Below, one piece after another: positions 14,201 to 20,294 of a stretch of 52,056 nt of DNA. Position numbers and translations under genes: made by a program. The first letter of the stretch is position 1. Each line of letters opens with the position of its first letter. This DNA comes from Gammaproteobacteria bacterium (GTDB lineage: Bacteria; Pseudomonadota; Gammaproteobacteria; Thiohalomonadales; Thiohalomonadaceae): the NCBI GenBank assembly GCA_015231435.1, contig JADGBN010000007.1, positions 1-52,056 on the forward strand, written 5' to 3'. The notes below the pieces were generated by a model. The model saw only the letters and a list, made by a program, of their open reading frames with translations. It searched no databases and was not told where the DNA came from.

Positions 14201-15082
14201 CTAACGAAGTACCCCGATAAAGGACTCTTCAAGTCCAGGCACCTTAACACCCGCAGTGCCGCCCGCCTCACTGGAACCAAAAGGTGTCACCATTAACTCT
14301 ACCCGACGATTTTTCGCACGATTCTCTGGGGAGTTATTGGGCTCTAACGGTTTTGTATCCGCCAATCCCTTCACCTCCATATTTTCACGACGCAGACGAC
14401 CATCGCGGGTCAGCGTCTCCACCACTGAAACTGCACGCGCAGCTGAAAGTTCCCAGTTTGAACGAAAACGTGCGGTGGCAATCGGAATGTCATCCGTATG
14501 GCCGGCAATGGCAATACGTCCTGGGGTATTGACCAGTTCATCAATAATGCGCTTCATGACCGGGTTAAAAGAGGCTTTCAGATCTGCCGTTCCAGAGTCG
14601 AAGGAGCCTCGCTCCTTAATGCGAATAATGACATTATTGTCCTTGCGTTCAATCTCGACCATCCCCTCTTTAATCTCATCCTTAAGCGACTCCTTAAGCT
14701 GCTTCTCCATGTTTTCAGCCTGCTTTTCAGCGACAGTCTCCGACTCAACTGGGGGTCGCAAATCAAGATTCGGGGCATCGGTGGTGGTTGACTGCTTCAC
14801 CTCGTCAACGGGCGTTGGCTCCGGCTTTCCCGGACTGAACTCCTGAGCAATAATACTGGTACCCATCGGCGAGAAGTTTTCCCGCACCTGACGCTGCACC
14901 CCAAACGCCTTGCTTAAGGAGCCGGCAGCGGCTTTAAAACGTTGCGCATCAATTTGAGAAAAAGTAAGCAGCAGTACGAAAAAGCACATTAACAGAGACA
15001 TCAGATCGGCAAAGGTGGCAAGCCATGGCGGGAGTCCGTCCTCACAGGCGGGACATTCGCACTCATCTTCTTCATCAGCCAT
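14201..15082 (-). CDS. pomB: Flagellar stator protein MotB/PomB family
   Basis: 'PPWLATFADLMSLLMCFFVLLLTFSQID' plug/TM with conserved Asp; OmpA-like peptidoglycan-binding C-terminus. Confidence 0.92.
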   Translation of the reverse strand: MADEEDECECPACEDGLPPWLATFADLMSLLMCFFVLLLTFSQIDAQRFKAAAGSLSKAFGVQRQVRENFSPMGTSIIAQEFSPGKPEPTPVDEVKQSTTTDAPNLDLRPPVESETVAEKQAENMEKQLKESLKDEIKEGMVEIERKDNNVIIRIKERGSFDSGTADLKASFNPVMKRIIDELVNTPGRIAIAGHTDDIPIATARFRSNWELSAARAVSVVETLTRDGRLRRENMEVKGLADTKPLEPNNSPENRAKNRRVELMVTPFGSSEAGGTAGVKVPGLEESFIGVLR

Positions 15083-15098
15083 GGCCTATTTTCCTTGA

Positions 15099-15857
15099 CT
15101 ACTCATCTTCTACCGGACGCTTGGAGGCCGGCAGATAGGTCGAGAGCAACTCTGAAATAACCCGTGGATTGTGGCCTGCCTGAATCGACTGCAAGCCATC
15201 AATAATTAATGATTTAACCAACTTCTCCTCATTACTGCGCAGCGCAAGCTTTTCGGCAATCGGTTGACAGATCATATTGGCAATCATCGAGCCATACAGG
15301 GTAGTCAGCAGCGCCACCGCCATCGCCGGTCCGATAGAGGCAGGGTCAGACATATTTGCCAACATCTGCACCAGACCCACCAGGGTTCCGATCATCCCCA
15401 TCGCCGGTGCATAGACCGCATAACCCTTAAATATCGTCACCCCGACCGAGTGGCGCTCTACCGTTTGTGCCATATCCTTATTAAGAACACTACGAATCAT
15501 CTCCGGTGCATGACCATCCACCATCATCTGAATCCCTTTTTTGAGAAACTCATCATCGATATCGGCCCCTTCCAGCGCCAGCAGGCCATCCTTACGGGAG
15601 ATATTTGCCAGCTCCTGCAACTTCTCAATGAGCTCAAGGGGATCGGAGAGTTTATTGCTAAAGGTTTTCCCCGCAATCTTAAAAGCCCCGAGAAATTGCC
15701 CCATGCTGTATTTCATCATGATGATCATTAACGTACCCCCCACCACAATCAGCAGAGAGGGGGCGTTAACAAAGATGATGGCACTTGGTCCCAGCATAAT
15801 TGCCGAGATGATAATCGCCCAGGCACCCAGAAAACCGATAAGTGTTGCTATATCCAC
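15099..15857 (-). CDS. pomA: Flagellar stator protein MotA/PomA family
   Basis: 252 aa; MotA/TolQ/ExbB core 'YAPAMGMIGTLVGLVQMLANM...GPAMAVALLTTLYGSMIANM'. Confidence 0.92.
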   Translation of the reverse strand: MDIATLIGFLGAWAIIISAIMLGPSAIIFVNAPSLLIVVGGTLMIIMMKYSMGQFLGAFKIAGKTFSNKLSDPLELIEKLQELANISRKDGLLALEGADIDDEFLKKGIQMMVDGHAPEMIRSVLNKDMAQTVERHSVGVTIFKGYAVYAPAMGMIGTLVGLVQMLANMSDPASIGPAMAVALLTTLYGSMIANMICQPIAEKLALRSNEEKLVKSLIIDGLQSIQAGHNPRVISELLSTYLPASKRPVEDE

Positions 15858-15968: not shown

Positions 15969-16343
15969 TTACGCCGGGGTTTCACTATCCTGTTCTGCCA
16001 CCTGTTTTTTGACATCAGCCATATCAAGATCTTTTGCCTGTTCAATCAGCTGTTCAAACTGGCCACCCATCAACGCCCCCGGTTGTGCGTAGATAATAAT
16101 CTGTTCGCGAAAGATCATGAGCGTCGGGATCGAGCGGATATTGAAGTGACCTGCCAACTCCTGCTCGACCTCGGTATTTACCTTAGCAAAGACAATATCT
16201 GGATAATCCTCCGCTACCGACTCATAAACCGGGCCGAACTGCTTACACGGACCGCACCAAGGCGCCCAGAAGTCAATAATAACAAAGGGGTTATCATTAA
16301 TAATCTGCTCAAAATTATCGCCATTTAGATCTACCGTTGACAT
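15969..16343 (-). CDS. Thioredoxin-like protein
   Basis: WCGPC active site, 'IRSIPTLMIF' cis-Pro motif. Confidence 0.93.
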   Translation of the reverse strand: MSTVDLNGDNFEQIINDNPFVIIDFWAPWCGPCKQFGPVYESVAEDYPDIVFAKVNTEVEQELAGHFNIRSIPTLMIFREQIIIYAQPGALMGGQFEQLIEQAKDLDMADVKKQVAEQDSETPA

Positions 16344-16376: not shown

Positions 16377-18659
16377 TTACTTCGAGGTCATCGTCCAAAT
16401 TCCGCTCCAGTCACTACCCGGATCATGTTGTTGCAGATGTTGACAGCGTTCAATGTAAACGCTGGTTAGGTAATCCTGCGGATGAATCGCAAGGATATCA
16501 TTAAATGAACCTATCGCCCGCTGCCAGTCCCCCTGCTTGTAGTGTTCCCGCCCTTCACGAAAGAGGCCGATCACATCCATCATATTGGGGAAGCTGCGAT
16601 TATCATGGTAGTCAAGCACCTCATAAATCTCTATCGGTTGCGTTTTGCCCTTGACCACCACATAGTCAATCGCCCTGACCCGATAGGTTCCGTGCAGCTG
16701 CTTATAGGTATTCTCACTAATGAGGATCTGCGCCCCATACTGCTTACAGGCGCTCTCTAACCGCGCCGCAAGGTTAACGCCATCACCAATAATAGTGTAG
16801 TCCATCCGTTTTGGTGAACCGATATTACCTGAGACCACATGACCGGTATTAAGACCAATCCCAATATGTACCGCTGGCTCACCACGACCTTCGCGATCCG
16901 CGTTCCAGCGCTGTAACGAAGTAATCATCTCAATTGCCGTACGCACACCACGGTCAGGATCATCATCGTGGGCGCGGGGAATGCCAAAGACTGACATAAT
17001 CGCATCACCAATGAACTTATCCAGCATCCCCTCATGACGCTGTATCGACTCCACCATAATGGTGAAGTACTCATTGAGCAGCGAAACCGTTCCCTGGGCG
17101 CCAAGCGTTTCGGTAATCGTCGTAAAGCTGCGAATATCGGAGAAGAGAACCGTTGCCTCAATGCTGGTGCCCCCCAATACATCTTGCCCCGAGTCGAGCA
17201 ACTGCGCCGCAAGCCCCGGATCCATATAACGCGCCATCGTTGCCTTAACGCGCTTTTCGTTACTAATATCCTCAATCATCAGCATACAGCCGAGTTGGCT
17301 GCCATCCGTACTCTTTAACGGGTGCGTCGTGATATTGACTGAACGCTCTGCGCCACTCACCCAAAGCGAGGCATCCATGGTTACATCACTCTGCTGCTCC
17401 CGCTGTACTTTGGTAATACGCTCGAGTAACCAGCTATTATGCTCGTTAAATATCTCTTCAGCCTTTCTGCCCAGCAGATCATCACCACTAACACCAAGAA
17501 TACGCTGACCCGCGGCATTGCAGGTGATGATCTGCCCCTCCTCATCAAGGGTAATCACCCCAGAGGGCATACTTTCAAGCATACTTTCGTTATAGTTTTT
17601 AATATTTTGCACATCTTCAAAGAGCTTGGCATTCTCCAGGGCAATGGCAATTTGGGCGGTAAATGCCTTAAGACGGGTCTCATCCTCGCTGGTAAAGGGG
17701 CCACCATGACGATTCAAAACCTGGGTAACGCCAATACATTTACCCTTTTTATTATTCACCGGAACGCAGAGAATAGAGCGGGTAAAGTAGCCAGTCTGCT
17801 TGTCAAAGGCGGGGTTAAAGCGCAAATCAGCATAGGCGTGCGGAATATTTATTGTCTGCTGTGAGGTAAAGACCGTCCCGGCAATACCTAAATGGTTGGG
17901 AAAGCGTATTTCACCAATGCTGTCCCCCTGCGCCACCCGCGCAAAGAGCATTTTTCGTTTCTCATCATTCAAAAAGAGGGTCGAGCGATCCGCCTGCAAC
18001 ATTTTGGTCGCCTCACCCATAACCCGTTGCAGCAAGGTGTCCAGCTCTAACTCGGAGGTGACATCGACGACAATATCAAGAAAGTCGAGCTCCTTCTGCC
18101 GCGTTTTATTCATCCGCTCGACAAACTGACTGCTCTGCAAAGAGATCGCCGCCTGCGTCGCCATGCGACTCATCAGATCCAGATCACTTTTGGAAAAGCC
18201 GCCATCAACTTTATTCAGCAGCTCAATAACCCCGATAGTCTCGCCCCGAACGGTGCGGATCGGGCAGCAGGCGATATTGCGGGTGGTATAACCGGTTTGG
18301 CTATCGACACTCTGATTAAAGCGAGGATCACTATAGGCATCGGCGATGAGGAGATCTTCGCCGGTGGTATAGACATGACCAGCTATCCCACTATTATTGA
18401 GAATGCGGATCTCGCGACGGTTGGTGCCCTGTGCAATACGGGAGTAGAGCTCGTTGGTTTCTGGATCATTCAAAAAGACCGAACCACGCTCCGCGCTTAA
18501 GGTCGTGGTGGCAATTTCAATGAGGATCTCTAGCTGTTCATCGAGAATATCGGAGTCGGCAATCCGTTTGGAGAGCTGTAACAGCAGCTGCAGGCGCGCC
18601 AGCTCCGGCATCGGTTTGGCCACTGCACGCGCCGTGGTCTCAGACTTGGCGCTGACCAT
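16377..18659 (-). CDS. GAF-GAF-PAS class III adenylate/guanylate cyclase
   Basis: ORF track runs to 18803; Met at 18659 (MVSAKSE) is the likely start. Two GAF domains (NKVDGGF, NRHGGPF), PAS, cyclase catalytic domain 'TVLFSDIRSFTTI', 'LDKFIGDAIMSVFG', 'MDYTIIGDGVNLAARLES'. Confidence 0.93.
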   Translation of the reverse strand: MVSAKSETTARAVAKPMPELARLQLLLQLSKRIADSDILDEQLEILIEIATTTLSAERGSVFLNDPETNELYSRIAQGTNRREIRILNNSGIAGHVYTTGEDLLIADAYSDPRFNQSVDSQTGYTTRNIACCPIRTVRGETIGVIELLNKVDGGFSKSDLDLMSRMATQAAISLQSSQFVERMNKTRQKELDFLDIVVDVTSELELDTLLQRVMGEATKMLQADRSTLFLNDEKRKMLFARVAQGDSIGEIRFPNHLGIAGTVFTSQQTINIPHAYADLRFNPAFDKQTGYFTRSILCVPVNNKKGKCIGVTQVLNRHGGPFTSEDETRLKAFTAQIAIALENAKLFEDVQNIKNYNESMLESMPSGVITLDEEGQIITCNAAGQRILGVSGDDLLGRKAEEIFNEHNSWLLERITKVQREQQSDVTMDASLWVSGAERSVNITTHPLKSTDGSQLGCMLMIEDISNEKRVKATMARYMDPGLAAQLLDSGQDVLGGTSIEATVLFSDIRSFTTITETLGAQGTVSLLNEYFTIMVESIQRHEGMLDKFIGDAIMSVFGIPRAHDDDPDRGVRTAIEMITSLQRWNADREGRGEPAVHIGIGLNTGHVVSGNIGSPKRMDYTIIGDGVNLAARLESACKQYGAQILISENTYKQLHGTYRVRAIDYVVVKGKTQPIEIYEVLDYHDNRSFPNMMDVIGLFREGREHYKQGDWQRAIGSFNDILAIHPQDYLTSVYIERCQHLQQHDPGSDWSGIWTMTSK

Positions 18660-19080
18660 GAACTGACTCTTCAAGTTTTTGCCGCAAAACAGCAATCGTC
18701 TGCTGTAACTGTAACTGTTCATTACGATTGGTTTGCGCGATCTTCTCCAATCGCTCCTGACAACGAAACTGACAACTGTCGAGTGCTTCACGCAGGGCAG
18801 CAATGGTCTGTTTCAACTGCACCACCTCCTCATAGCGATGACTGACGGCCTGCTGAATCTCGCGCTGCTGATTAAATACCAGATCATCACTACCCTGACG
18901 CATCGCCATAATCGTCTGTTTAAGCTCTTCGACCTCGCTACGCGAGTACAGCTGGGCACGTTGTACCGCCTCCTGCGACTCCTGTACCTGCGCTTCAAGG
19001 CGGTGACGCATCTCGACTATCGTCTGCTGCAAATGCAAAGTCTCTTTTTGCAGCGCAAGCTCACGGGAAGGCTCCATCAC
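18640..19080 (-). CDS. Coiled-coil protein with four exact-period 36-aa repeats (LxQTIxxxRxxL)
   Basis: 146 aa; QTI at residues 19, 55, 91 and 127; translationally overlaps both neighbours (4 nt with HD-GYP, ~20 nt with cyclase). Confidence 0.8.
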   Translation of the reverse strand: MMEPSRELALQKETLHLQQTIVEMRHRLEAQVQESQEAVQRAQLYSRSEVEELKQTIMAMRQGSDDLVFNQQREIQQAVSHRYEEVVQLKQTIAALREALDSCQFRCQERLEKIAQTNRNEQLQLQQTIAVLRQKLEESVHGQRQV

Positions 19081-20294
19081 ATACCCAAAATCTCGGTGTA
19101 AATACGCGGGTTAATATCGTAATCCGCTGCTGAGACCGCCTTTACCACACCATTATTGGCACTTTTTGCCAGATCAACCCGCTGCATATTGACATAGTGA
19201 TGACCTTTTACACTATAAAAAACCATCACCGTCGGCTTTAGCAGATTCTCGCCCGCCTCAATCACAATCGCCAAGTGGTTGGACTTCAGCTCAACCATTG
19301 TCCCCACCGGGTAGATTCCCAAACAGCGAATAAACTGCTGAACCAGGGTGGCATCAAAGTGGCTTGGGGTCCACTCCATCATCTTTTTCAGGGTTAGGGT
19401 CGGTTCCCAAGCGCTTTTATAGATGCGTACCGAGGTGAGCGCATCATAAACATCAACAATCGCCGACATCTGACCAATATGGGTGATCGCATCACCCTTC
19501 AGTTTTAGCGGATAACCGGTGCCATCAATGCGCTCATGGTGCATGGTCACCGCTTCTAGGGCAATTTTCGAAATACCGGAGGTTTCGCGCAAAATTTCAC
19601 CACTAATGACCACATGATTCTTCATCACCAGAAACTCATCATCGGTCAGTTTCCCGGGTTTGTTAAGCACCTCCTGCGGCGTCATAATTTTACCAATATC
19701 GTGTAACAGCGCCCCTTTGCCTATTTCGAGAATTGTCGTCTGATCCATCCCCTGACAACGGGCAAAGGCGATCGACAGCGCGGCGACACTCACCGAGTGC
19801 ATAAAGGTGTACTCGTCCTTGGTTTTAATTCGGCTAATACTGGTGAGGGCGTGAGGATTGCGAAACACCGACCCCATCATATCGCTGGCAATCGGTTCGA
19901 CATCACTGGCATCAATCTGTTTGCCGACACGAATATCCTGCATGAGCGTTTTAACCACACTCTGCGCCTGAGTGAACACTTTTTGTGCCTGTTGCCGCTC
20001 CTGCTCTACGGAGCGTGGCTGCGTGCCGGAGAGATCTTTAACCACCTCGATCATCTCGGCATCAATGCGATCGCTCACCTCGGCAACGGTGGGCGCATCC
20101 TCAACATCAAGACCTCGCTCGGGATCAATATAGAGCTGCTTAATCCCCTCTTTAATGATTTGATGAATCGTCTCACGATCCTTAACCATAAAGTTGTTAC
20201 GCAAAAACGAGTGTTCCATCCAGCTGCAATCGAGATCGCTGACATACATTCCCGGCTTAAGCTGGTCACTACGAATGCGCTTTTTCATCGCCAT
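19077..20294 (-). CDS. HD-GYP domain protein with DUF3391-type N-terminus (probable c-di-GMP phosphodiesterase)
   Basis: 405 aa; 'LLHDIGKIMTPQEVLNKPGKLTDDEF', 'HHERIDGTGYPLKLKGDAI'. Confidence 0.93.
   Translation of the reverse strand: MAMKKRIRSDQLKPGMYVSDLDCSWMEHSFLRNNFMVKDRETIHQIIKEGIKQLYIDPERGLDVEDAPTVAEVSDRIDAEMIEVVKDLSGTQPRSVEQERQQAQKVFTQAQSVVKTLMQDIRVGKQIDASDVEPIASDMMGSVFRNPHALTSISRIKTKDEYTFMHSVSVAALSIAFARCQGMDQTTILEIGKGALLHDIGKIMTPQEVLNKPGKLTDDEFLVMKNHVVISGEILRETSGISKIALEAVTMHHERIDGTGYPLKLKGDAITHIGQMSAIVDVYDALTSVRIYKSAWEPTLTLKKMMEWTPSHFDATLVQQFIRCLGIYPVGTMVELKSNHLAIVIEAGENLLKPTVMVFYSVKGHHYVNMQRVDLAKSANNGVVKAVSAADYDINPRIYTEILGM

Follow-up and report, generated by a model that had tools for sequence, protein, structure and literature searches.

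A coiled coil of exact 36-residue repeats is the probable partner of one clade of GAF-GAF-PAS nucleotide cyclases

The window, a 52,056-nucleotide stretch of DNA from a gammaproteobacterium of the Thiohalomonadaceae (contig JADGBN010000007.1), encodes a small protein composed of tandem 36-residue units. This protein is very probably a straight coiled-coil rod and, judging from sequence, gene order, and distribution, is almost certainly a functional partner of the GAF-GAF-PAS class III nucleotide cyclase encoded directly downstream. Coiled coils with long periods are known, and so are GAF-cyclases; the libraries and papers searched contain no description of an exact 36-residue rod of variable copy number that constantly accompanies a single cyclase clade. 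Soluble bacterial adenylate cyclases are usually regarded as self-contained homodimers, and an obligate rod partner with a fixed period and a free length would give cells a new means of arranging cAMP synthesis spatially or of setting the response. It would also be a straight coiled-coil module of natural origin, already tested by evolution, with 3.60 residues per turn and an adjustable length.

The 36-residue repeat and its geometry

The coiled-coil open reading frame has two candidate starts, GTG at 19080 and an ATG one codon downstream (Table 1). The first-pass annotation described four copies of an LxQTIxxxRxxL motif exactly 36 residues apart, and this description is borne out. The QTI motif begins at residues 18, 54, 90, and 126 counted from the ATG (19, 55, 91, and 127 from the GTG). 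Compared with itself, the protein is 31% identical at a lag of 36 (34/109), while all other lags except 72 give 2 to 13%. In 10,000 shuffles the 34 matches at lag 36 were never equalled, and a set of 2,000 shuffles never gave the same fraction at any lag. On the DNA, the antisense anchor AT[C/G]GTCTG lies at exactly 18695, 18803, 18911, and 19019, as that annotation stated. With 7 copies in the window and 342 in the genome, this 8-base string is common by itself and is therefore informative only through its 108-bp spacing.

Table 1. Features of the coiled-coil locus and its two neighbours
Feature	Position in window	Strand	Details
DUF3391/HD-GYP protein, upstream neighbour	19077..20294	(-)	Pfam DUF3391 1e-32, HD_5 1e-24; overlaps coiled-coil gene here; not a conserved module member
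Coiled-coil repeat protein	18640..19080	(-)	146 aa from GTG 19080, or 145 aa from ATG 19077; TGA stop 18640-18642
36-residue unit 1	18925..19032	(-)	LQQTIVEMRHRLEAQVQESQEAVQRAQLYSRSEVEE; anchor PSSM, spacing 36
36-residue unit 2	18817..18924	(-)	LKQTIMAMRQGSDDLVFNQQREIQQAVSHRYEEVVQ; anchor PSSM, spacing 36
36-residue unit 3	18709..18816	(-)	LKQTIAALREALDSCQFRCQERLEKIAQTNRNEQLQ; anchor PSSM, spacing 36
Unit 4, C-terminal capping unit ending shortly past the anchor	18643..18708	(-)	LQQTIAVLRQKLEESVHGQRQV; anchor PSSM, spacing 36
GAF-GAF-PAS-class III nucleotide cyclase, 759 aa, downstream	16377..18656	(-)	Pfam GAF 6e-41 (2 domains), PAS, Guanylate_cyc 3e-27; TPR_2 8e-4 (C-terminal, below cut-off)

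The same period recurs in 50 relatives spread over the phylum, where anchor-to-anchor spacing is exactly 36 in 230 of 233 steps; orthologues without the 36-residue periodicity, which the first-pass annotation had named as evidence that would count against it, did not appear. Two of the exceptional spacings are 72, reflecting a weak unit under the threshold, and one is 38, in a fusion protein described below. The arrays contain 3 to 14 whole units, most commonly 4 or 5. At the threshold used for the anchor PSSM scan, 0.12 chance hits per 1000 residues are expected and 23.8 were observed. The anchor consensus is LxxTIxxLRxxLE, found in stand-alone tandem arrays: position 9 is Arg in 279 of 283 units, position 1 is Leu in 263, and position 13 is Glu or Asp in 272. 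Conservation of the anchor Arg could serve helix pairing alone.

Hydrophobic columns of the 36-residue profile fall at positions 1, 5, 8, 12, 15, (19), 23, 26, 30, and 34, a 7+7+11+11 pattern with seam spacing 4-3-4-3-4-4-3-4-4-3; position 19 is mainly polar, with Lys or His commonest. The mean array periodogram, computed with no register assumed, peaks at 3.600 residues rather than at 3.5 or 3.667, so that 36 residues make ten turns. A natural alpha-helix turn is close to 3.600 residues, and a hydrophobic period near this value places the seam almost parallel to the helix axis, with anchors repeating at the same angle. The periodogram thus supports the earlier suggestion that each unit makes ten turns of an almost straight helix, with the anchors on one face; at 0.15 nm per residue, successive anchors on that face would be separated by 36 x 0.15 nm, or about 5.4 nm. 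AlphaFold2 (monomer) predicts a single unbroken helix over residues 2 to 124 of a 125-aa array (pLDDT 96.7); the continuous predicted helix and the hydrophobic seam with its 3-4 residue spacing are the structural marks of a coiled coil.

Array length changes by whole units. Within one genus, arrays have 5 (G404, G407), 7 (G434, G532), or 11 (G426) units, with the first and last units recognisably kept and middle units gained or missing whole. Four middle units of another array (L084) are identical at 26 to 31 of 36 residues, an apparent sign of recent duplication. That length varies while the period stays constant argues for selection on the 36-residue step.

The first-pass annotation did not recognise the protein family, and neither do the libraries. 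The window protein stays below the curated cut-off of every Pfam and NCBIfam model: the best Pfam match is ApoO (20.1 bits versus a cut-off of 31.4) and the best NCBIfam match scores 13.3 against a cut-off of 100. A Pfam scan of 23 relatives found no family matching more than 4 members at E 0.001, and a PDB profile search with the family returned no sequence at E<=0.01. Weak matches to eukaryotic coiled coils (ApoO, CENP-F, Cnn_1N, GAS) vary from one member to the next and were read as matches of composition. We found no description of the protein in the open-licence literature; an earlier mention elsewhere is possible.

Scy, which has a 51-residue repeat, FilP, and other bacterial long-repeat coiled coils share with this family a non-heptad periodicity. 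They differ from it in repeat length and sequence, occur in other phyla, and are not known to have a cyclase partner, and the family itself has no consistent Pfam match among 23 members. The S-helix, a parallel coiled-coil element some 40 residues long, occurs near cNMP cyclases and has conserved Arg and Thr in the coil; it spans five heptads, bears an ERT signature at positions c-d-e, and lies within multidomain proteins (PMC1592074). The 36-residue unit is alike in its similar size, its location near cNMP cyclases, and its conserved Arg/Thr. Unlike the S-helix, it follows a mixed 7/11 pattern, occurs in tandem, and is normally a separate protein; the ten-turn unit, the LxxTIxxLRxxLE anchor, and the stand-alone arrays rule out identity with a five-heptad ERT helix.

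Gene order and distribution of the pair

In the window, the coiled-coil gene overlaps both of its neighbours, as first reported and as the start and stop coordinates confirm. The cyclase ATG at 18656 produces a 17-bp overlap with the end of the coiled-coil gene, and the TGA stop of the HD-GYP gene (19077-19079) overlaps the GTG start. Measured to the nearest in-frame cyclase start, the stop-to-start distance from coiled coil to cyclase has a median of -0.5 nt; the genes overlap in 17 of 34 cases and lie within 60 nt of each other in 31. This closeness fits translational coupling of the two genes.

In a phylum sample of 399 genomes, the coiled-coil profile (E<=1e-6) and the cyclase (E<=1e-150) match the identical 26 genomes and no others. 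Because the profile was built partly from these 26 genomes, an independent test was run in another class. There, all 13 further genomes found by the coiled-coil profile alone encode a cyclase ortholog (56-64% identical) directly after the coiled coil. Within the window's own order, the coiled coil is present in 2 of 20 genomes and the cyclase in the same 2. Among 369 genomes of the window's class, true coiled-coil members occur in 10, each adjoining the cyclase as far as contigs reach; four weak matches at this level (G213, G222, G259, G301) lack the anchor motif and were not counted. Two genomes in which the coiled coil appears without an adjoining cyclase both place it at contig breaks: in G303, the cyclase N terminus follows the coiled coil directly, whereas G602 has each gene on a separate short contig. 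Named genomes yielded one relative, L009 in a Rhodospirillales metagenome-assembled genome, directly before the cyclase.

One genome (G410) carries a natural fusion, the sole one found. A single 888-aa open reading frame (L103, 4270-6936) comprises three repeat units followed by a complete cyclase; its last anchor spacing is 38, and it is interrupted by a Pro-rich linker. The fusion suggests that the rod may be attached on the N-terminal side of the cyclase. The arrangement that recurs across genomes is an array of 36-residue units that immediately precedes, or is fused to, an orthologous cyclase. The synteny with the cyclase that was anticipated from the window holds across the loci compared, including the 13 of 13 further genomes. 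The synteny anticipated for the HD-GYP gene does not hold: this gene adjoins the module in the window only and is absent from the other tested loci (E 1e-15). No gene besides the coiled coil and the cyclase shares synteny beyond a few close relatives. Downstream of the module in the window, on the same strand, lie a MotA/MotB-like stator pair and a thioredoxin-like gene (14201-15857 and 15969-16343; named by eye), neither of which was seen beside the module in other genomes.

Possible roles of the rod

On the reading to which we give an even chance, the coiled coil is a subunit of variable length dedicated to one clade of GAF-GAF-PAS adenylate cyclases, which it docks or dimerises. Two or more chains would form a nearly straight rod to which each unit adds about 5.4 nm, and the L-x-x-T-I-x-x-L-R-x-x-L-E anchors would be aligned along one face. 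Cyclase dimers could then bind at the repeated anchor patches, with copy number setting valency and reach, or the rod could prolong the N-terminal helix of a parallel cyclase dimer. Either way, the cyclase would be clustered or positioned and its dimer geometry held for GAF/PAS control. Points that count against this reading are the irregular array of the sole fusion (three units, a spacing of 38, and a break containing Pro), the scatter of clade-specific residues over the cyclase, and the possibility that the anchor Arg is conserved for helix pairing only. A more specific form of this reading, which we offer tentatively, is a straight coiled-coil rod that presents the same cyclase-docking patch at 5.4-nm intervals, the number of sites (3-14) being tuned in evolution as whole units are gained or lost; if true, cAMP signalling would have a modular scaffold of a class not described before.

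Docking or dimerisation is preferred here over two other functions. The rod may instead be a regulatory or anchoring subunit that links the cyclase dimer to another component of the cell (a sensor protein or the membrane, pole, or nucleoid) and transmits or blocks a signal, with copy number acting as reach or ruler. The fusion places the rod at the N-terminal, sensory side of the cyclase, and the arrays keep their end units while their middle units vary, as expected if both ends bind different things. However, the pair has no conserved third neighbour, almost no additional N-terminal domain is available for target binding, and the near-invariant Arg in every unit suggests a job for each unit; we regard anchoring as rather unlikely. 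It is improbable that the coiled coil polymerises into cytoskeleton-like filaments and sequesters the cyclase. Staggered lateral assembly would be permitted by a whole-unit repeat, and there is precedent in bacterial coiled-coil proteins such as FilP, which self-assemble into filaments (PMC6599971). Yet arrays can be as short as three units (about 16 nm), the one in the cyclase fusion is short, and no recognised filament family was matched.

Two further explanations carry very little weight. The first-pass annotation proposed that the protein may act as a scaffold between the HD-GYP phosphodiesterase and the cyclase, an idea that drew on the overlapping genes on both sides in the window; no HD-GYP homolog lies beside the module at the other loci tested, and with this neighbour local to the window the proposal is highly improbable. 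The units of the window array are only 10 to 12 of 36 residues identical to one another and are Glu/Gln-rich in composition, as a generic coiled-coil ORF or a chance low-complexity repeat with no conserved role might be. The 230 of 233 exact spacings, the Arg in 279 of 283 units, and the perfect co-occurrence with one cyclase contradict this explanation and leave it a negligible probability.

The cyclase partner and its clade

The partner has the two GAF domains, the PAS domain, and the Guanylate_cyc domain in Pfam that define it as a GAF-GAF-PAS class III enzyme. Its substrate-site motifs, LDKFIGDA and MDYTxIGD, contain a Lys/Thr pair as in class IIIb enzymes. The pair suggests a class IIIb adenylate cyclase, possibly bicarbonate-responsive. 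The closest known enzymes are the Anabaena CyaB1/CyaB2-type adenylyl cyclases. A PAS domain is present in CyaB1 as well, and no separate coiled-coil rod gene is known for CyaB1 or CyaB2. In contrast, every examined member of the window cyclase clade has a repeat protein encoded upstream. Tandem GAF domains with a class III catalytic domain are shared with CyaB2 (PMC4411481).

Orthologs of the cyclase are unusually conserved across classes, at about 55-64% over near-full length, and share a conserved C-terminal end, W-x-G-x-x-x-M-x-x-K. In a cyclase tree, a fully supported branch separates 47 partnered enzymes from five coil-less paralogs, and the partnered sequences are largely grouped by class. 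The pair is kept in 11/78, 11/48, and 15/172 genomes of three classes. This tree pattern and patchy retention fit a single origin of the partnership followed by mostly vertical descent with many losses. Three further genomes of the window's class (G110, G231, G264) lack the coiled coil, and the only cyclases of this kind that they encode are diverged (42-49% identical). A phage origin was rejected, with no relatives on viral contigs, and no plasmid-borne relatives of the cyclase were found at E 1e-60. Residues specific to the partnered clade are scattered over the GAF-B, catalytic, and C-terminal regions with no clear cluster and do not single out any one docking site.

In two of the coil-less paralogs (L053 and L057), the N-terminal stretch before the GAF domains reads by eye like a cyclic-nucleotide-binding domain, which suggests that these enzymes may be subject to direct cAMP feedback.
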